Origin: Spirochaetaceae bacterium
GTDB taxonomy: Bacteria > Spirochaetota > Spirochaetia > B11-G9
Direction: 5' to 3'
Length of the DNA stretch: 9,295 nt
Assembly: GCA_030633365.1 (NCBI GenBank)
Contig: DAOVSY010000095.1
Coordinates: forward strand, 1 to 9,295
The notes beneath the pieces were generated by a model. The model was not told where the DNA came from. It ran no database searches and saw only the letters and a program-made list of their open reading frames with translations. The translations under genes were made by a program, and so were the position numbers. Within the stretch, counting starts at the first letter, position 1; every line of letters starts with the position of its first letter. This document shows, in pieces, positions 1 to 8,874 of this stretch.

Positions 1-399
1 CTGTTTCATACCTCTGCAAATCATCAGAGCTTTGAATGCTTCATTATATCTTTTTAATTCCAGTGCACTTAGGGCACATTTTAAGGTGACTTCAAATTCA
101 TCAATATCTTTTTGAGTTGCACACAAATCAATAAGCATTTCATAGTTTCTAAGAGATTTATCATACTTTGCTTCATCAAAATAAATCCCTGCCAGGGTAG
201 TGAGAGCCTCAGAATCCTTGGGATTTTGTGCAAGTTTACGGTTAGCTTCTTTCTGTAATGCTGCATTACTTTTATTTTTTAAACGTTTTTGTTTCTTACC
301 TGAATCATTCTTATGTTTTTTTGATGTTATGACGAAGAGTACTATAATGACAAAGAGTCCTAGAATTATAGGTAAAAGAAATATATAATTATTCTGCAT
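1..399 (-). CDS. Membrane-anchored TPR-like protein, 5' part (C-terminus outside window)
   Basis: An open frame of 133 codons runs from an ATG at 399-397 off the left edge with no stop. The first 25 or so residues form a hydrophobic N-terminal anchor (about residues 5-25, with an LLPIILGLFVIIVLFVI core). A very basic stretch follows at about residues 27-50, which suggests that the rest lies in the cytoplasm. From about residue 52 the sequence looks like helical TPR repeats: the NPKDSEALTTLAGIY stretch and a KYDKSLRNYE helix fit the TPR pattern, and a second possible unit lies around residues 105-128 (ALSALELKRYNEAFKAL). TPR arrays bind other proteins, and no enzymatic function can be assigned. 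No start codon exists in frame upstream of 399 within the divergent region, and no Shine-Dalgarno sequence precedes the ATG. It is divergent from the LysM gene, so any functional link is only suggested by position. Confidence 0.85.
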   Translation of the reverse strand, partial: MQNNYIFLLPIILGLFVIIVLFVITSKKHKNDSGKKQKRLKNKSNAALQKEANRKLAQNPKDSEALTTLAGIYFDEAKYDKSLRNYEMLIDLCATQKDIDEFEVTLKCALSALELKRYNEAFKALMICRGMKQ

Positions 400-519: not shown

Positions 520-1905
520 GTGAAAAATCCTACTATTGGAATAAAAATTGCTGATGGATCCTATTTTCCTATTATGGAGGAAGGCAGTTCAAAAAGAAAA
601 CGTTTAGTTTTAACAACTGTAAATGATAATCAGGAAAATGTTCAAATAGATCTTTATAAAGGTGATGGAGAGGAACTTCTTGATGCCATTTATGTTGGTA
701 GTTTATTAATAGAAAATATTGCTCAGGGTCCAAAAGAATTATCAGAAATAGAGCTTAAACTGGGATTTGCCCAGGACGGAACTCTAAATGCAGAAGCTGG
801 AGATCCAGGTTCAGGTCAATATGAATCTATGAGTATTAGTATGGAAACACTTGGTGAGTCTTCGGTGTATGATACTCCTGATTTTTCACTGGATGATGAA
901 ATGGAAGATTTGCAGATAGATGAGGAAATATCCCTTGATGCTGATATGGAAGACCTTCAACTTGATGATCTGGGAGAAGAAGACCTGGAAATTGATATGA
1001 TAGATGAGGAAATATCCCTTGATGACGATATGGAAGACCTTCAGCTTGATGATCTGGAAGAAGAAGACCTGGAAATTGATATGCCAGGTGAAGAACTGAG
1101 CCTTGACGATGATGTAGAAGATATGCAGCTTGATGATTTTGGTGATGAAGACCTTGAAATTGATATGGTTGGTGATGAGTTATCTCTTGATAATGATATC
1201 GACCAGAATTTAGATTTGGATAGTGAAGAATTGAGCCTTGATGATGAAGATTTTGATTTTGATGATTTGGAAGAAGATTCTCTGGAAGTTGAAGATTTTG
1301 ATATGGAAGTTGATGATGAAGAGCTTTTTGATGAAAGCTCCGAAAATATTACTGAAGATGAATTTGAAAAAACCTCAGACAGTGTTTTGGAAGATGAAGA
1401 TGAAGACGACTATACACCAGGTATTTTATCAGAGTCCGAAACGGTTCATAAGAAAGAAAAGGAGGGTGGAAACCCTCTTCTTATTGCCCTTTTAGTTATA
1501 ATTGCTATTGCAGCAATTGCCGGTATTTCGTATCTTCTTTTCCGTAGCCTTCAGGGTGAGGATTCCCCTGCTCTGGAAGCAAAAGCTGGCTCAGAAGAAA
1601 CTGTTTCTGAAGTAGAACCAGAAGCTTTATTAGAACCTATTGTCGAAAATGCTGAAGAAAGTACAAACGGAGAGCAACCAAAAGATGATACAACTGCAGT
1701 TCCTGAGCTTGCTGTGCAGGAGAGTACAAAAGTCCTGGACAGCACCGGTGTATGGTATAAAATACGATGGGGAGATACTCTCTGGGGCATCTCCTATTCC
1801 TTTTATGATTCTCCCCGGGATTTCAATGAGATTGTTAAAGAAAATAAAATTAAAAATCCAGATATCATTTTTGCAGAAACTGAAATATTTATACCTTCCA
1901 GGTAG
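520..1905 (+). CDS. Hsp70 substrate-binding-like domain, acidic repeats, one TM segment and C-terminal LysM protein
   Basis: This 461-residue protein starts at GTG. Residues about 5-110 resemble the beta-sandwich substrate-binding domain of DnaK/Hsp70. Landmarks are TVNDNQENVQIDLYKGDGE near 33-51, a GSLLIENI strand, and DGTLNAEAGDPGSG near 86-99, which parallels the NGIL-V-A-D-SG segment of DnaK. No ATPase domain is present. Residues about 120-300 are extremely rich in Asp and Glu and include 28-residue tandem repeats. Lysines at 311-314 precede one membrane span (about 319-341). A Ser/Glu/Pro-rich linker leads to a LysM domain at about 412-459 (YKIRWGDTLWGIS ... NPDIIFAETEIFIP). The positive-inside rule and the lack of a signal peptide suggest a cytoplasmic N-terminus with LysM binding peptidoglycan in the periplasm. 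The architecture recalls FimV (LysM, TM, acidic part) in reverse order. The next gene encodes a lytic transglycosylase and overlaps this one. The LysM call is firm; the Hsp70-like call is by eye and fairly strong. Confidence 0.9.
   Translation: MKNPTIGIKIADGSYFPIMEEGSSKRKRLVLTTVNDNQENVQIDLYKGDGEELLDAIYVGSLLIENIAQGPKELSEIELKLGFAQDGTLNAEAGDPGSGQYESMSISMETLGESSVYDTPDFSLDDEMEDLQIDEEISLDADMEDLQLDDLGEEDLEIDMIDEEISLDDDMEDLQLDDLEEEDLEIDMPGEELSLDDDVEDMQLDDFGDEDLEIDMVGDELSLDNDIDQNLDLDSEELSLDDEDFDFDDLEEDSLEVEDFDMEVDDEELFDESSENITEDEFEKTSDSVLEDEDEDDYTPGILSESETVHKKEKEGGNPLLIALLVIIAIAAIAGISYLLFRSLQGEDSPALEAKAGSEETVSEVEPEALLEPIVENAEESTNGEQPKDDTTAVPELAVQESTKVLDSTGVWYKIRWGDTLWGISYSFYDSPRDFNEIVKENKIKNPDIIFAETEIFIPSR
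922..1224 (+). repeat. 84-bp tandem repeat encoding 28-residue acidic units
   Basis: Three complete in-frame units lie at 922-1005, 1006-1089 and 1090-1173, followed by a degenerate partial copy to about 1224. Each unit reads roughly E-E-I/L-S-L-D-x-D-M-E-D-L-Q-L-D-D-L-x-E-E-D-L-E-I-D-M. Units 1 and 2 differ at 7 of 84 bases by my count, while unit 3 is more diverged. A partial unit (DFSLDDEMEDLQID) precedes the array at residues 121-134, and looser SLDD-type motifs continue to about residue 265. Confidence 0.85.
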
Positions 1906-4015
1906 TAAGCTTAGTTTTTTTCTTTTACTTATTTTTATTTCCTTACCTATTTATCCTTTCCAGCTATCTGAGAACAATTTACCATATTTCCATACATTAT
2001 CTGATAGTGATCTTAACAATTTAGAAATAAAAGAAAATTTGTTTCATAGTGCCAAGCATGGTACCAATATAATTCGTCTTAAGGCTGCATTAAAACTTTC
2101 TGAATTAGGGATAGAACAAAAAGATTTTAAGATTGTGGATGAGGTATGTAAAAGTTTACTGGAGGATGGATATACAGAAATTGCTCTTTTTGAAAATCTG
2201 TTTGATACGTATTATTTACAGGAAGACTTTAAAAGTTTGGTTTTGACAGTAAACAAGTATTTAGCTGCTGATATTTATTCTAAATTGAAATCTTCTCCTA
2301 AAATTGAGTTTTATATTTTTCTAGCTCAGCTTTATAGTGGTTCTGATACAGTCACAGAACATTTTAGAGAGTTTATTATTGAAAATACTGTATCAGAATT
2401 TACAGTTGATGCTTATTTTCACATTAAAAAATTTGAGATTAGCATTCCTGCTTCTACAGTTTATCTGGCCAACTTTAAAATGCAGCTGTTTAAGAAAGAA
2501 TATTATTCAGCAGGTCGAACTATGATCCAAATTTTAAACAGCCAGAAAGAAATAATTATTAGTACTTTGGAGAGAGGATATATAGTAGACAGTGTAGATA
2601 TCTCTTCTGTAATTTTAGATGAAATGTATAAAACTGCCAGTTCTACAGGTCAAAAAGGAGAACTTCTGGGATTAATTGAAGAACTTCTTTTAATACCTGA
2701 ATTATCTGGGTATGAGCCTGGAGAAGTTTATTCTTATGAGCTTTTAAGCAGATTATATGAAACGGCAGGATATCTTCTTAGACGAAATGGTGATTATTCC
2801 AAAGCTGCTGATATGTTTCTAACGGGCCTTTCTTTTACGAGTGTTAAAAAGTATGAAAAAATACTCTGGTACTGGTATAATAGCCTTATAAGATACTCTC
2901 CTGAACTGGCTGTCAGTCAAATTAATCTGTTAACAGAAAAATGGACTGATCCTGATTATTTTACAGATGTCCTTGAAGAATTGGCAACTTATTTTATTCA
3001 GCAAGGTCAATGGAGTGTTATAAACAAACTTCTTGATGCTATTGAATTAACCGGGCCCGATGAATCAATTTCAAAATATGCATATCTTACAGCCAGGGCA
3101 GGTATTGAATCTTATATTAGTATAAATAAAAAAGAGATAATACGTTTAATGACTTTATCATATAATAGTGGATATGGTATTGCTTCCGGACTTTACTACA
3201 GAATTCTTGCAGGAAATTATCTTAAGATTTTTGATATCAGACAGCTTCCATGGGTATTCAACAGAACTGTAAACAGATATCCAGTTCCTGCAGAGCCTGG
3301 AGAAGATGGAAGTTCAGAACTTATTTTTGGGTTTCTTGAATATGAACAACCCGTCGAAGCATATAAATATCTTATGGATAATCCATTTTCTAATTTTGGT
3401 TTAGTTCGTAGAACAGCATTGGAGTTGTCAGAAGGTAAAAATTTTGCTAAATCCATTCGATTAGTAAACCGCTATAGTCGTATAGATGGATTTAATTTAG
3501 ATATTTCCGATCTTAAACTTATCTATCCGGATGCTTACAATAGTGAGATATTAAAAATATCTGACAAAGAAGCTCTGGAGTGGTATGTTTTTACTGCCCT
3601 TGTAAGAGAAGAATCACATTTTCAGGAAAGAGTTGTATCTTCTGCCGGAGCAATTGGCCTAAGCCAGTTAATGCCGGCTACAGCTGCAGATGTTGCAGGG
3701 AGATTGAGATTTACAAATTATAATTTAAGGGATGCCAATACAAATCTAATGTTTGGAGGCTGGTATCTGGGTAATTTGATAAAAAGAACAGATATAATGA
3801 GTGATGCATTATTTGCCTATAATGGCGGTTTAACCAGGGTCAGGCGCTGGAGAGAAGAATATTCCAGTTTACCGGATGATCTTTTTCTTGAAGCTGTTCC
3901 TTATAAGGAGACAAGTCATTATGGACGGAAACTGCTTGTTTCATCAGTTGTTTATGGGTATCTTTACGAGGGTATACAACCCGGAGAAATTATAAATCTT
4001 TTTTACAGGAATTAA
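1871..4015 (+). CDS. Slt70-type lytic transglycosylase with N-terminal helical domain
   Basis: This enzyme would cleave the MurNAc-GlcNAc bond of peptidoglycan in the periplasm, leaving 1,6-anhydro ends. With a TTG start at 1871 it has 714 residues. A hydrophobic segment (about residues 16-30) behaves as a signal peptide or anchor. A long helical, TPR-like region follows, as in the superhelical arm of Slt70. The C-terminal SLT domain begins near residue 570. Its motifs are VREES with the probable catalytic Glu at 581, GLSQLMP at 596-602, AYNGG at 649-653 and PYKET with Glu680. The set matches family 1 transglycosylases, and the length is near that of the family. The start is uncertain. TTG 1871 overlaps the LysM gene by 35 bases and gives a signal peptide of normal size. 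ATG 1826 would overlap by 80 bases and add 15 basic-rich residues. Neither has a clear ribosome binding site, so translational coupling is likely. The LysM neighbour may serve as its wall-binding partner. Confidence 0.9.
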   Translation: MQKLKYLYLPGSKLSFFLLLIFISLPIYPFQLSENNLPYFHTLSDSDLNNLEIKENLFHSAKHGTNIIRLKAALKLSELGIEQKDFKIVDEVCKSLLEDGYTEIALFENLFDTYYLQEDFKSLVLTVNKYLAADIYSKLKSSPKIEFYIFLAQLYSGSDTVTEHFREFIIENTVSEFTVDAYFHIKKFEISIPASTVYLANFKMQLFKKEYYSAGRTMIQILNSQKEIIISTLERGYIVDSVDISSVILDEMYKTASSTGQKGELLGLIEELLLIPELSGYEPGEVYSYELLSRLYETAGYLLRRNGDYSKAADMFLTGLSFTSVKKYEKILWYWYNSLIRYSPELAVSQINLLTEKWTDPDYFTDVLEELATYFIQQGQWSVINKLLDAIELTGPDESISKYAYLTARAGIESYISINKKEIIRLMTLSYNSGYGIASGLYYRILAGNYLKIFDIRQLPWVFNRTVNRYPVPAEPGEDGSSELIFGFLEYEQPVEAYKYLMDNPFSNFGLVRRTALELSEGKNFAKSIRLVNRYSRIDGFNLDISDLKLIYPDAYNSEILKISDKEALEWYVFTALVREESHFQERVVSSAGAIGLSQLMPATAADVAGRLRFTNYNLRDANTNLMFGGWYLGNLIKRTDIMSDALFAYNGGLTRVRRWREEYSSLPDDLFLEAVPYKETSHYGRKLLVSSVVYGYLYEGIQPGEIINLFYRN

Positions 4016-4147
4016 TTGAGGCTGTCCTGAACCTCGTAGTTCACATATTATGTATTTTTATATATTATGTACTGTAAGATATCAGTATTACAATCTAAAA
4101 AATTAAGCCTCGATTCAGAGGGATTAAGTTAAGGGACGGCCTGAATT
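4016..4147 (+). other. Intergenic region between the transglycosylase gene and uppP
   Basis: The 132-base gap holds a promoter (4040-4068) and a leader of roughly 70 bases. In the leader CCTC at 4108-4111 can pair with GAGG at 4118-4121 around a six-base loop. The hairpin is too weak to call a riboswitch or terminator. No GC-rich stem followed by a T run is present after the transglycosylase stop, so read-through from upstream is possible. Confidence 0.5.
4040..4068 (+). promoter_or_regulatory. Sigma70-like promoter for uppP-ftsK and downstream genes
   Basis: TTCACA (4040-4045) and TATTAT (4063-4068) are separated by 17 bases, and each hexamer matches consensus at five of six positions. Transcription would start near 4075, leaving a leader of about 70 bases. 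No promoter of similar quality was found between later genes, so this could drive the whole downstream series. Confidence 0.6.
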
Positions 4148-4939
4148 ATGACATTTATTCAATCTATTTTACTGGGAGCTCTTCAGGGGTTTACTGAGTT
4201 TCTCCCTGTTTCAAGTTCCGGTCACCTGGCAGTAGTGGAATCTTTTATGAAACTCCAGGAGGTCCCTGTACTTTTTGATATACTTCTCCATATTGCAACT
4301 CTTTTGGTAGTAATTATAGTTTTTAGAACAAGGTTGATTGGAATTATTATTTCTATATTTAAAAGAAAAAATATTAATGATGAAGATAAAGCCAATAGAA
4401 AGCTTTTTCTTATGATTCTTGTATCTACATTTTTTACAGGTATTATTGGTCTTGGACTGAATAATCTTGAAGTGGAAAACTATCTGTTTATTATATATCT
4501 GCTTTTCATTCTAACAGGGTTTATACTTATTGGAAGCAAATTCTGGGGTGGGAATATAGATTACAGCAGTTTAGGTCTGAAGCAGGGAGTAATTACAGGA
4601 ATAAGTCAGGGGCTTGGGGTTCTTCCTGGAATCTCCCGGTCAGGCATAACTATATCTGCTGCCCTCCTTTCCGGTATGAGCAGGGAAAAAGCCGGAGAAT
4701 ATTCATTTCTTATATCAGTGCCTGCTATTCTGGGTGCCTTCATTCTTGAGTTTAAAGATGCAGAGGGATTAATGGATATGGTTGATCCTATAACAATAGC
4801 AGTCGGTATGCTTTCAGCTTTTATTGTAGGTTTACTTAGTCTAAAGATATTATTAAAACTTATAAAAAATGGAAAATTATATCTGTTTAGTTTCTATTTA
4901 ATTCCACTGGGAAGTATGGGATTAATATTTTTCAGGTAA
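4148..4939 (+). CDS. uppP: Undecaprenyl-diphosphate phosphatase (BacA/UppP family)
   Basis: This integral membrane enzyme removes one phosphate from undecaprenyl diphosphate to regenerate the lipid carrier used for peptidoglycan and other surface glycans. Overproduction in other bacteria gives bacitracin resistance. The protein has 263 residues, close to the usual length. Motif 1 is QGFTEFLPVSSSGH at residues 13-26, with Glu17, the Ser22-24 cluster and His26. Gln13 sits where E. coli UppP has Glu17, and the family consensus allows Glu or Gln there. Motif 2 is PGISRSG at 160-166, with Arg164 as the expected phosphate-binding residue. Hydrophobic stretches cover most of the chain, with a charged loop near 70-85 (KRKNINDEDKANRK). 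AAGGGA at 4131-4136 is the best ribosome binding site, 11 bases from the ATG, which is rather far. It is followed after 66 bases by ftsK. Confidence 0.96.
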   Translation: MTFIQSILLGALQGFTEFLPVSSSGHLAVVESFMKLQEVPVLFDILLHIATLLVVIIVFRTRLIGIIISIFKRKNINDEDKANRKLFLMILVSTFFTGIIGLGLNNLEVENYLFIIYLLFILTGFILIGSKFWGGNIDYSSLGLKQGVITGISQGLGVLPGISRSGITISAALLSGMSREKAGEYSFLISVPAILGAFILEFKDAEGLMDMVDPITIAVGMLSAFIVGLLSLKILLKLIKNGKLYLFSFYLIPLGSMGLIFFR

Positions 4940-4963
4940 AATTATCCTTTCTCCTAATCATTC

Positions 4964-4981
4964 ATTTTTTTTGAAAAAAAT
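4964..4981 (+). repeat. A/T-tract palindrome between uppP and ftsK
   Basis: Eight T residues (4965-4972), one G and seven A residues (4974-4980) form a near-perfect inverted repeat flanked by A and T. It lacks G-C pairs and has almost no loop, so it is not a standard intrinsic terminator. It could be a bent-DNA element or simply a product of AT-rich intergenic sequence. Confidence 0.5.
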
Positions 4982-4994
4982 CCGATAACGAAGT

Positions 4995-5004
4995 AAGGGA
5001 GAGG
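4995..5004 (+). promoter_or_regulatory. Ribosome binding site of ftsK
   Basis: The purine run AAGGGAGAGG ends one base before the ATG at 5006. The AGGGAG core lies at a normal distance of a few bases. This strongly supports the chosen ftsK start. Confidence 0.7.
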
Positions 5005-5005
5005 T

Positions 5006-7396
5006 ATGCAAAAAGGTCGATTGTCATATTATTCAGCAGCTGTACTGGGATTATTGGGAGTGTTTTTTCTTCTTTCTTTAATTCTAAGTTTTTATGGAAT
5101 AGGGAATCCCTCCGGGGACTTTCTTAAAGCCAGTTTTACTTATGCATCTTTCTTTATTCCATTATATATTTTTACAGCAGCACTGATGTCTTTTAAAGAG
5201 CAGTTTCGCAGTAAATGGGTAATCCTTCTTACTTCTACAATACTTCCATTTTTAACCCTGGTCTTATTTTTAAAAGTGTATCTTGATATTGATAGTTCTT
5301 TACCAGTTGTTTTTACAGTCAATCTTATGGGAAGAAAAGAAAGTTCATTTCTTCTGTCTCTTATATTTTTAGTAGAAATATTAATAATTTATGTTCTAAG
5401 TATAAAAATATCAGTTGCAACCAGAGCCTCCATAGAAGTAAATACACAGATAATTAAGGAAGTTCCTGAAGTAATTGAAGAACCTAATCATAAAGGCCAT
5501 TCTATTTTACGCCCTGGAATATCTGAAGAACTTCTTGGAACCAGCTCTGTCGATAGTACTGACTCTTTTGATTCAGATCAATCAGATTATAATAATCCTA
5601 CTCCATTTATGACAGAAAATATCTCTGGTGATCATAGTAATTTAGATATAGACCTTCCCGAACTGCCATCACTGGATAAGCTTAAATCTATTGGGAATCA
5701 AAGTTCGGGCTTAGCAGAAATTTTGGTAAATGATAAAGATCTATCTATTAATTTTGGGGAAGAATATGAAGAGATAGATGAGTCTGAAGAACAGAATAAT
5801 CCTAATTTTGAAGAAGAAGTATTTTCTGAAATTGGTGAAGATCATCTTATCAATACAGATATTTCAGATAACATTTTAACTGAAGATTCCCCTGTTAAAA
5901 TTCTCAGTGAAAAGGATACAGGCACTCCAAAGGGGCAGAAAAAATTTACTTATGCAAATTACAGTGTACCATCTAAAAATATACTTAAGGACTATGCTGA
6001 CAGCCACTATTGGGTAATTGATGATGCAACAAGACTGGCTGCAGAAGTACTAAGGGAAACACTGGAAGAGTTTAAAATTAAAGCAGAAGTTACAGGAATA
6101 AAAAAAGGTCCTGTAATTACAATGTTTGAAATTCTGCCTGCTCCAGGTGTGAAGTTGTCAAAGATTGCCAATCTGGCAGATAATATTGCAATGCGTCTTG
6201 CTGCTTCCAGGGTTAGAATTGTTGCCCCCATACCTGGTAAGCATGCTGTTGGAATTGAGATTCCCAACAAGGAAAGAGCTATAGTTTCCTTTAAAGAGAT
6301 GCTTCAGGACGATAAGTTTTTGGATCCTAAGAATGAGATACCAGTTGCCATTGGCAAGGATATTACAGGAAATACACAAATAATAGATCTTGTAAAAACA
6401 CCCCACCTTTTAATAGCCGGAGCTACTGGTTCCGGTAAATCTGTATGTGTAAATGCTCTTATCTGCTCAATACTTTATAAACGAAACCCCGATCAGGTCA
6501 GACTTTTATTAATTGATCCAAAAATTGTAGAACTTAAACTCTACAATGGTATACCTCATTTACTTACTCCTGTAATTACCGAACCTAAACGTGCTTTTCA
6601 GGCGCTTCAGTACTGTATTTACATAATGGAACAGCGATATGCACTTCTTGATGGTATGGGTGTAAGAGATATTAGATCCTATAATAAAAAAATAGTTAAA
6701 AATAGAATTGCAACAAAAAAATTGCCTTATATTGTAGTAGTAGTAGATGAGTTTGCAGACCTTATTGCAACATCCGGAAAAGAGCTTGAGTCAATTCTTG
6801 CCAGGCTTGCAGCTATGGCCAGGGCTGTTGGAATTCATCTTGTTCTTGCAACTCAGAGACCGTCTATAGATGTTATTACTGGTCTTATTAAGGCAAATAT
6901 TCCAAGCCGGATAGCATTTATGGTATCCAATAAAATTGATTCCAGAATAATTCTGGATACTTCAGGAGCTGATAAACTTCTTGGGCAGGGTGATATGCTT
7001 TTCTCCTCTGCCTGGGATCCCTCTTTAACACGAATTCAGGGTGCCTTTTTATCAGATGCTGAGGTTGAAGGTGTAACTGCCCATGTGAAAACCCTTGGTG
7101 AGCCTGACTATATTGACGATGAAATTTTCTATGATGATGACACTGAGGATACAACAGATACAGGAAGTTATATAACTAATGATCCTCTAATGGATAAGGC
7201 TATAGAAACAGTTGTTCTGGCAGGAAAGGCCTCTGCTTCTTATCTTCAGCGACGTTTACAGATTGGATATAACCGGGCAGCAAGAATAGTGGAAGAGATG
7301 GAAGCCAGAGGTATAGTTGGCCCTCCTAATGGCAGCAAGCCCAGAGAGATTCTGCATGTACCGGATCGGGTTCGGGATGCTGGTTCTGAAGAATAG
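5006..7396 (+). CDS. ftsK: DNA translocase FtsK/SpoIIIE
   Basis: This membrane-anchored hexameric ATPase pumps chromosomal DNA through the closing septum and helps dimer resolution. The protein has 796 residues. Four membrane spans lie at about 8-31, 44-63, 71-93 and 113-135. An acidic, Ser/Asn-rich linker covers about 140-310. The motor follows: an alpha subdomain from about 325 (YWVIDDATRLAAEVLRETL), Walker A GATGSGKS at 472-479 with Lys478, and Walker B VVVVDE at 577-582. Family signatures DPKIVEL, ATQRPS and NIPSRIAF are present. The C-terminal gamma winged helix (about 724-785; SASYLQRRLQIGYNRAARIVEEME) is the DNA-sequence-reading domain that recognises polar motifs such as KOPS or SRS. 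All key motor residues are present. The length is close to that of SpoIIIE and shorter than E. coli FtsK because the linker is short. It lies 66 bases after uppP and 16 bases before the next gene, suggesting cotranscription. Confidence 0.97.
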   Translation: MQKGRLSYYSAAVLGLLGVFFLLSLILSFYGIGNPSGDFLKASFTYASFFIPLYIFTAALMSFKEQFRSKWVILLTSTILPFLTLVLFLKVYLDIDSSLPVVFTVNLMGRKESSFLLSLIFLVEILIIYVLSIKISVATRASIEVNTQIIKEVPEVIEEPNHKGHSILRPGISEELLGTSSVDSTDSFDSDQSDYNNPTPFMTENISGDHSNLDIDLPELPSLDKLKSIGNQSSGLAEILVNDKDLSINFGEEYEEIDESEEQNNPNFEEEVFSEIGEDHLINTDISDNILTEDSPVKILSEKDTGTPKGQKKFTYANYSVPSKNILKDYADSHYWVIDDATRLAAEVLRETLEEFKIKAEVTGIKKGPVITMFEILPAPGVKLSKIANLADNIAMRLAASRVRIVAPIPGKHAVGIEIPNKERAIVSFKEMLQDDKFLDPKNEIPVAIGKDITGNTQIIDLVKTPHLLIAGATGSGKSVCVNALICSILYKRNPDQVRLLLIDPKIVELKLYNGIPHLLTPVITEPKRAFQALQYCIYIMEQRYALLDGMGVRDIRSYNKKIVKNRIATKKLPYIVVVVDEFADLIATSGKELESILARLAAMARAVGIHLVLATQRPSIDVITGLIKANIPSRIAFMVSNKIDSRIILDTSGADKLLGQGDMLFSSAWDPSLTRIQGAFLSDAEVEGVTAHVKTLGEPDYIDDEIFYDDDTEDTTDTGSYITNDPLMDKAIETVVLAGKASASYLQRRLQIGYNRAARIVEEMEARGIVGPPNGSKPREILHVPDRVRDAGSEE

Positions 7397-7412: not shown

Positions 7413-7781
7413 ATGTCATCTAAACCTCCTCTCCCATGGCCAGTCCTCCTCATCCCTTTAAGCATAATGCTCTTAGGCCAAATTTTCGCAAAACTATCCG
7501 GAAACTATATCGCGTCCGGTGGATCTATTCTAAATACCTATTCTTTAATTAGTTACATTTGCTTAATAAGCAGAGGATTTCTCTGGATATTTATTATACG
7601 TAGAATGCGATTGGTTTTTGCTTATCCTGTAATGAGCATCAATTACATATTGGTACTTCTTGTTTCATACTTTATCTTTAAAGAAGAAATTGTAAGCACA
7701 AACTTAATTGGAGCCGGGCTAATAAGCCTGGGTGTTATTCTTATAGGTATTGGAGAAAAATATAACGGGAGAAGGGTTTGA
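7413..7781 (+). CDS. Small EamA/SMR-type membrane protein, ArnE-like putative flippase subunit
   Basis: This 122-residue protein has four predicted membrane spans (about 9-28, 41-62, 67-87 and 93-114). The FAYPVMSINYILVLLVSYFIF segment followed by KEE and a GxGLISLGVILIG helix are typical of the EamA/SMR fold. When aligned by eye with EmrE, the position of its proton-coupling Glu14 is Met19, so a drug/proton antiporter is unlikely. ArnE and ArnF are short proteins of this fold proposed to flip undecaprenyl-phosphate-linked aminoarabinose, and this gene is likewise followed by a second short paralogue and an ArnC-type glycosyltransferase. It starts 16 bases after ftsK with no strong ribosome binding site. 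The sugar carried cannot be told from sequence, so no arn symbol is given. Confidence 0.8.
   Translation: MSSKPPLPWPVLLIPLSIMLLGQIFAKLSGNYIASGGSILNTYSLISYICLISRGFLWIFIIRRMRLVFAYPVMSINYILVLLVSYFIFKEEIVSTNLIGAGLISLGVILIGIGEKYNGRRV
7768..7776 (+). promoter_or_regulatory. Ribosome binding site of the ArnF-like gene
   Basis: The purine run GGGAGAAGG G-rich core at 7768-7776 lies inside the end of the preceding gene. It ends four bases before the ATG at 7781, which favours that ATG over the in-frame TTG at 7778. Confidence 0.6.
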
Positions 7782-8143
7782 TGCTTGTTTATAGTAAACT
7801 TCTGTTAATGGTAATTTTAACATCCCTTTCTCAAGTATTTATTAAAATTGGTTCCCGTAAAATAATTACAAATAGTGGACTTTCAGTACTAATAAAAACG
7901 TTTTTAAATTATAATATTATTATTGGAATTAGCTTTGTTGTAGCTGCCCCTTTACTCTATTTTTCTGCTCTGTCCAGTGTCCCTCTGAATATTGCATTCA
8001 GTGTTAATGGCCTAGGCTACATAATTGTAATTGTTTTAGGAAGACTGGTTTTAAAAGAACATATTTCAATTTTTCATATTACTGGAGGGTTGCTAATTTT
8101 TGGTGGCTTTATGGTTTGGAATTTGGGAGCAGGATTATTTTGA
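7781..8143 (+). CDS. Small EamA/SMR-type membrane protein, ArnF-like putative flippase subunit
   Basis: This 120-residue protein has four predicted spans and shares the fold of its upstream neighbour. An N-terminal helix has SLSQVFIKIGS, a central span carries ISFVVAAPLLYFSALSSVPLNIAFSV-like character (about 44-70), and a LVLKEH loop precedes the final GGLLIFGGFMVW helix. The EmrE Glu14 position is Thr14 here, again arguing against drug/proton antiport. The ATG overlaps the stop of the upstream gene by one base (TGATG) and the 3' end overlaps the glycosyltransferase by four bases if TTG 8140 is its start. Such coupling is expected when two subunits are made in equal amounts, so the two probably form a heterodimer that moves a polyprenyl-phosphate sugar across the inner membrane. 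Part of this function is inferred from context. Confidence 0.8.
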   Translation: MLVYSKLLLMVILTSLSQVFIKIGSRKIITNSGLSVLIKTFLNYNIIIGISFVVAAPLLYFSALSSVPLNIAFSVNGLGYIIVIVLGRLVLKEHISIFHITGGLLIFGGFMVWNLGAGLF

Positions 8144-8874
8144 AAATATCTGTTGTTATTCCCAGTTACAATGGTTTGGATCGATTGGGTGAACTTTGTG
8201 TCAAAATAGAAAAAGCACTTCTGAATAATATTGAATTAGAAGATTTTGAAATAATTATAGTGGATGATGGCAGTAAAAACAGACCGGAAAAGCAGATTAT
8301 TGAATTACGAAATATGGGTATAGATGTTAAAGGTGTATTTCTTAAACAAAACTATGGGCAGCAGCTTGCTACCCTGGCAGGATTAAAAGTGTCCAAAGGG
8401 GATTATATTGTTACTATGGATGATGATCTTTCCCATAATCCGGAGGATATTATCGAATTATTTTCTTCTATTCAAAAAGGTAAGTTTGATGTTATCTATG
8501 GAATTCCCAAAAATAGTAGAACTGGATTGTTAAGAAAGAGTGGTTCGTTATTAAGAGATTTGATTTTTAATATATTTTTTAAAAAACCTAAAGGTATTTC
8601 TGTTTCAAGTTTTAGAATTTTAAACAGGGTTCTGACAGATAGAATAATAAGTGATATTTCTGAATATCGATATTTGTCTGTTGAAATTTTAAAGCATACA
8701 CAGGCAATTGCAAATATACAGGTTAGATATAATAGAGCAATAGAAAAAATAAGTCAGTATAATTTTATTAAACTTGTTCTACTTGCTTTATCTCTTATAA
8801 GATGTTCCCGTTTTTTTCCAAAATGGATTCGGGTGTCTGAAGCAGCATCAGAAATGAAGTGGGATATTATATGA
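8140..8874 (+). CDS. Family 2 glycosyltransferase, ArnC/DPM1-like polyprenyl-phosphate sugar transferase
   Basis: The enzyme probably transfers a sugar from a nucleotide donor to undecaprenyl phosphate on the cytoplasmic face. It has 244 residues. N-terminal GT-A signatures are KISVVIPSYNG (2-12), VDDGS (41-45), QNYGQQLATLAGL (70-82) and the metal-binding MDDDLSHNPED (93-103), which parallels the ArnC/GtrB series. An ISVSSFRILNR segment in the second half corresponds to the conserved DSFR-type region of these families. Unlike ArnC or GtrB it ends without two C-terminal membrane helices, so it is closer in form to soluble DPM1. The TTG at 8140 is preferred because it yields the standard GT2 N-terminus, has AGGA at 8131-8134 as ribosome binding site, and overlaps the previous stop as TTGA. 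An ATG at 8116 would add eight residues. The sugar cannot be inferred. Confidence 0.88.
   Translation: MKISVVIPSYNGLDRLGELCVKIEKALLNNIELEDFEIIIVDDGSKNRPEKQIIELRNMGIDVKGVFLKQNYGQQLATLAGLKVSKGDYIVTMDDDLSHNPEDIIELFSSIQKGKFDVIYGIPKNSRTGLLRKSGSLLRDLIFNIFFKKPKGISVSSFRILNRVLTDRIISDISEYRYLSVEILKHTQAIANIQVRYNRAIEKISQYNFIKLVLLALSLIRCSRFFPKWIRVSEAASEMKWDII

Follow-up and report, generated by a model that had tools for sequence, protein, structure and literature searches.

A spirochaete membrane protein joining an Hsp70-type substrate-binding domain to LysM, encoded beside a flagellar lytic transglycosylase: a possible ATP-free adaptor

We describe a protein, encoded in a 9,295-nucleotide stretch of Spirochaetaceae DNA (the whole of which is referred to here as the window; contig DAOVSY010000095.1, assembly GCA_030633365.1), that carries an Hsp70-type substrate-binding beta-domain (SBD), an acidic linker, one membrane helix and a C-terminal LysM domain, and that may be an undescribed flagella-linked adaptor. 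Its open reading frame lies at 520..1905 on the forward strand, has a GTG start and specifies 461 residues. Hsp70 substrate-binding domains ordinarily work together with an ATPase, and spirochaetes move by means of flagella that have to pass through the peptidoglycan within the periplasm. The absence of a nucleotide-binding domain and lid, the linkage to a flagellar lytic transglycosylase (LTase) gene and the occurrence of the family in flagellated spirochaetes together make a role as an adaptor in wall penetration the likeliest one. Specifically, we propose, with confidence somewhat short of even, an ATP-free single-pass adaptor that couples a cytoplasmic peptide ligand to peptidoglycan during flagellar wall penetration. 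If so, a conserved family spread widely through one phylum would offer a clean natural example of the Hsp70 peptide grip serving alone as a static recognition module across the membrane from a wall-binding domain.

The beta-domain occupies residues 3-112 (526..855) and was detected by Pfam (E 8e-7), by sequence comparison with the PDB (E 4e-8), and by AlphaFold2 modelling followed by Foldseek and VIA-align, the predicted fold lying 1.6 A from DnaK over 107 residues (model compared with 4r5l_A) at approximately 23% identity. The original prediction, made from the letters alone, had placed a DnaK-type substrate-binding domain at residues 5-110 or so and had proposed structure prediction as a check; an Hsp70-type beta-sandwich is indeed what the model contains. 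It had also held that neither nucleotide-binding domain nor lid is present, and here too the Pfam span and the model agree with it. The match to the Pfam Hsp70 profile (PF00012) covers only profile positions 395-510 of 599, Pfam finds no nucleotide-binding domain in the frame, and upstream of it there is no open reading frame able to hold one. The hydrophobic interdomain linker of DnaK, which we take to be VLLLDV, is likewise absent, since residue 3 of the model pairs with DnaK residue 396, directly past that linker. In place of the helical lid the AlphaFold2 model has a short helix (residues 108-114) and then an acidic, low-confidence chain, with no helix until the membrane span. With neither nucleotide-binding domain nor lid the Hsp70 cycle is impossible for this domain, which could at most hold a peptide passively.

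At the position where an Hsp70 lid would start there is instead a Y-D-x-P-x-F motif (residues 117-122; 868..885), conserved among the 120 family members listed at 1.00 for F122, 0.99 for P120, 0.92 for Y117 and 0.68 for D118. AlphaFold confidence is low here; the motif might act as a pseudosubstrate, stand in for the lid or serve in docking. The linker itself (residues 118-309; 871..1446) is 50% Asp/Glu, was modelled with low confidence and is probably disordered; it contains a 28-residue repeat encoded by an 84-nt in-frame tandem repeat at 915-1199. Twelve near relatives have total lengths of 377-474 residues, with the linker as the most variable part, and it appears to lengthen and shorten rapidly. 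The membrane helix (residues 319-344; 1474..1551) is predicted to run N-in, C-out, and the LysM domain (residues 413-459; 1756..1896) was found by Pfam (E 5e-6) and modelled at a pLDDT of about 96. The acidic stretch, single helix and terminal LysM were all anticipated in the original prediction.

Other explanations were considered and rejected. A chance match generated by the acidic repeats is ruled out, given that residues 1-111 alone score higher and the fold is of high confidence. A split or frameshifted DnaK gene is ruled out because the order recurs throughout the family; in addition, Hsp70-size matches occur in all four genomes checked, within open frames of 542-658 residues. Phage origin was considered through PHROGs, which gave five matches, four of them over the LysM region (an endolysin, a transglycosylase and two of unknown function) and the fifth, also of unknown function, over residues 30-107 (E 1e-4).

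With regard to topology, the window protein has no hydrophobic N-terminus. Among the 119 members with exactly one membrane helix, out of 120 listed including the window protein, Lys and Arg are more numerous in the 15 residues before the helix than in the 15 after it in 106, fewer in two and equal in 11. This excess on the N-terminal side predicts a cytoplasmic SBD and a periplasmic LysM, the arrangement originally proposed, so that judged by charge the SBD is probably inside the cell and the LysM domain outside.

The protein was compared with known systems. The beta-sandwich is that of the Hsp70/DnaK substrate-binding domain (the C-terminal part of PF00012; 4r5l, 1dkx), with a cleft that is largely hydrophobic and conserved, whereas the window protein lacks the nucleotide-binding domain, interdomain linker and helical lid and is fused to a membrane helix and LysM. 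FimV-like polar proteins have an N-terminal LysM, one membrane span and a long acidic, TPR-containing part that is cytoplasmic and C-terminal. They therefore share LysM, a single span and a long acidic region with the window protein, but their order and sides are reversed relative to its C-terminal LysM and predicted N-in, C-out orientation, and they lack an Hsp70 domain. FAP363, found in Chlamydomonas doublet microtubules (6u42, 8glv), differs in being eukaryotic and axonemal.

The family is conserved. Of 465 candidates compared with the SBD, 236 proteins matched at E<=1e-3, and of the 120 listed (the window protein included) precomputed labels assign an Hsp70 domain to 119 and LysM to 105, while a LysM core motif lies within the last 130 residues of 115. 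A profile built from 41 members matched 1970 proteins, the tail of which may hold LysM-only or Hsp70-only proteins. Relatives confirmed on genome contigs number 176; the 80 loci kept all bear spirochaete names, among them a Brevinematales bacterium, Treponema and Breznakiella. Listed entries that carry an organism in their name are all Spirochaet- and are titled "Hsp70 family protein"; further names are "Hsp70 protein/LysM domain", "LysM repeat protein", "nucleoid-associated protein YgaU" and "hypothetical protein". The original prediction had stated that no protein with this domain order had been described. This holds for the papers searched and not for the databases, which contain many such proteins, some labelled Hsp70/LysM. 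Our literature searches, which covered main texts, found no paper describing the protein, nor any description of an SBD/TM/LysM protein under the names BB0260 or BB0261; the parts of PMC3726837 and PMC6275353 seen contain none, and the passages of PMC8517470 on operon, upstream, LysM, BB0260, BB0258 and Hsp70 do not mention the SBD gene. The component parts, and the database labels on some members, are already known; the papers found do not describe the architecture, nor how widely spirochaetes conserve it, nor its association with the flagellar LTase. Two further copies were noted in passing: in G369 (C19:7984-11601) the family matches lie inside a 1235-residue open frame, representing a very long linker, and in G391 (C1:2644619-2645647) the match is interrupted by three stop codons and the LTase match beside it by none, so that this copy is perhaps decaying or frameshifted.

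The original prediction had noted an adjoining lytic transglycosylase gene, and this can now be specified as the flagellar one: the downstream product scores 404 bits against NF047373, the BB0259 family, for which the curated cut-off is 234. The gene is on the forward strand, for instance at 1826..4015, that start being an example only. The LTase frame has no ATG, GTG or TTG between 1905 and 2039, and position 2039 is already within the family match, so with the usual start codons the LTase must begin inside the SBD gene; the candidates are ATG at 1805, ATG at 1826 and TTG at 1871. An undecaprenyl-diphosphatase gene (BacA/UppP; 4148..4939) and an FtsK DNA translocase gene (5006..7396) follow on the same strand, and upstream on the reverse strand lies a divergent TPR-like gene (1..399), truncated where the window ends; its product is hydrophobic near the N-terminus and matches TPR families only weakly, below cut-off. 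A survey of spirochaetes for the same domain order beside a transglycosylase had been suggested, and across the 80 loci an LTase match lies downstream on the same strand in 71, making it the most regular of the neighbours tested; the divergent TPR-like match is upstream in 62. In the wider phylum survey the family and LTase matches occur in the order of the window and within 3 kb in 81 of the 85 genomes listed for both, the other four comprising three with the matches on separate contigs and one long-linker form. The SBD gene is a specific candidate that usually stands beside the gene of the known wall-opening enzyme.

That survey took in 389 spirochaete genomes, kinship and completeness not being part of the comparison. 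The family matched at E<=1e-15 in 174 of these, FlhA at 1e-50 in 332 (218 above the curated cut-off) and LTase at 1e-30 in 315 (202 above cut-off), the last level being unspecific in that 4 of 14 control genomes match and none exceeds the cut-off. The family is rare where FlhA is missing: 173 of 332 FlhA-positive genomes have it at E<=1e-15 as compared to one of 57 FlhA-negative ones, and 158 of 332 as compared to one of 57 at E<=1e-20, where intrusion of full-length DnaK is less likely. G282, the one FlhA-negative genome with the family, nevertheless has an LTase match. Set against LTase at 1e-30, the family occurs in 154 of 315 genomes with LTase and five of 74 without at 1e-20, and in 164 and 10 at 1e-15. 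Fisher values for these comparisons range from 5e-15 to 4e-10 and overstate the evidence, since relatedness is uncontrolled; the FlhA association may reflect one or a few losses. No family match at 1e-15 was found in 159 of the 332 FlhA-positive genomes.

Of the 150 listed genomes whose LTase exceeds the cut-off, the family was matched at 1e-15 in 110, leaving 40 without a match. Of these 40, 29 were inspected, and 25 of the 29 are Borrelia-like, a label drawn partly from gene order. In all 25 a diverged gene with a TTG start sits beside the LTase; its product resembles the family at the N-terminus, is acidic in the middle and has a membrane span near the end, but lacks LysM. An ATG-only scan of these loci came back empty because the frames start with TTG; when TTG and GTG starts were allowed, 22 of the 25 fitted the first pattern and all 25 the second. 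A LysM in one of the 22, L122, was suggested by a loose motif and rejected, the motif lying in the acidic linker before the membrane span and Pfam finding none. Pfam detected neither LysM nor SBD in the 11 of the 25 genes scanned; a profile of four such genes nevertheless matches the family profile (probability 85, E 6e-6, 77 columns). The BB0259-type locus of the Borrelia-like genomes resembles the window in its LTase and in the diverged SBD-like, acidic, membrane-spanning gene in the same place, and differs in the loss of LysM, from which it follows that the LysM wall anchor is dispensable in that group. As a separate observation on Borrelia-like genomes, L118 has an Hsp70-type gene (8793-9970; Pfam HSP70 E 6e-99) a few genes from the SBD gene, as do L119-L121, the latter judged from translations only.

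In a T. pallidum-like genome of 1.14 Mb the protein combines a short linker with LysM (E 7.5e-12); the family profile matches this genome (E 9e-28), its SBD escaping detection by Pfam. The T. pallidum orthologue would presumably be TP0042, from the gidA- and deaminase-like neighbours in L123; our searches found no T. pallidum literature on TP0042 or TP0043. TP0048, an initial guess, is ruled out, being described in the portion of PMC5015957 seen as a CcmA-type protein.

The remaining four inspected loci, L124-L127 (from genomes G321, G388, G236 and G219), have an over-cut-off LTase without an adjoining SBD gene, and at 1e-15 the family was not matched in their genomes. The LTase of L124 and of L125 stands directly beside a TPR gene (4442-5785 and 3993-5408, respectively), and that of L127 follows a LysM/peptidase-like gene. 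FlhA is present in all four genomes, which may carry a diverged SBD copy elsewhere. With LTase and FlhA present and the gene missing beside the LTase, the SBD protein appears not to be required for flagella in these genomes. It is accessory in some lineages, and LysM is expendable in one.

These four genomes also fit an alternative in which the protein is a general envelope or division adaptor tied to FtsK and UppP and not to flagella, anchoring a cytoplasmic peptide ligand at the wall as the cell grows or divides, with the LTase adjacent merely as part of a cell-wall cluster. Downstream FtsK at 43 of the 80 loci and UppP at 15, in conserved order and with contig ends cutting many loci, point the same way. 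We regard this alternative as unlikely, however, for it accounts poorly for the near-absence of the family from FlhA-negative genomes and for the LTase being the most regular neighbour.

The SBD cleft bears on a further question, namely whether the domain still binds peptides. We take the peptide contacts of DnaK to be I401, T403, M404, F426, S427, A429, Q433, V436, T437, I438, R467 and I472. Residues 27-107 of the window protein were aligned to DnaK 422-502 (1dkx, equal lengths) and residues 6-13 were placed by further alignments, giving I8, I10, A11, L31, T32, V34, Q38, V41, Q42, I43, K72 and I77 as the corresponding positions. Across the 120 members listed, these 12 have a mean conservation of 0.96 as compared to 0.72 for residues 5-108, a mean reached by none of 20,000 random position sets of equal size. 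Such conservation suggests a cleft that may still be functional, and from it we infer that the SBD may bind client peptides. Alternatively, the conservation could be structural, as cleft residues are partly buried, and the beta-domain might no longer bind peptides at all, representing a rigid structural or protein-docking reuse of the Hsp70 fold. The lack of both lid and nucleotide-binding domain, the altered arch residues relative to E. coli DnaK (M404 to Ala and A429 to Val by alignment) and the strong divergence in Borrelia-like and T. pallidum-like genomes are consistent with this. We consider it improbable, to much the same degree as the envelope alternative, because the cleft is among the best-conserved parts of the domain, the equivalents of V436 and I438 standing at 0.98 and 1.00.

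A membrane-bound holdase that binds the nascent chain or signal-peptide region of the LTase and passes it to Sec near the wall, although in keeping with the overlapping window genes, the order kept across loci and the description of the Borrelia LTase as Sec-secreted (PMC8517470), is very unlikely, as L124-L127 have the LTase with no SBD gene beside it and such a role would not need LysM, the core motif of which is retained almost throughout the family.

In the flagellar adaptor that we prefer, the detached cytoplasmic beta-domain would grip a partner by a short, extended peptide, with no need of ATP, nucleotide-binding domain or lid; the flexible acidic linker and single helix would join it to a periplasmic LysM holding peptidoglycan; and the protein, acting with the LTase encoded downstream, would position or tether a partner, cytoplasmic or in the membrane, at the site of hook passage through the wall. 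According to PMC8517470, hooks of Borrelia LTase mutants stay below the wall and do not cross it, the LTase interacts with FlgJ, and the authors' enzymatic assays of the LTase failed. A recent review states that proteins of the motor collar have yet to be identified (PMC13023049). In its boldest form, which we offer as a doubtful if attractive speculation, the proposal is that spirochaetes turned the Hsp70 peptide grip into an ATP-independent, wall-anchored receptor that recognises a linear motif in some flagellar component of the cytoplasm or membrane, which would bring the wall-cutting enzyme and the growing hook together and supply a missing contact between the periplasmic flagellar motor and peptidoglycan.

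Finally, we note that further along the window, at 7413-8874, two small overlapping membrane genes, weakly ArnE/ArnF-like at scores below the curated cut-offs, are followed by a family 2 glycosyltransferase gene, and the three perhaps form a lipid-linked sugar module.
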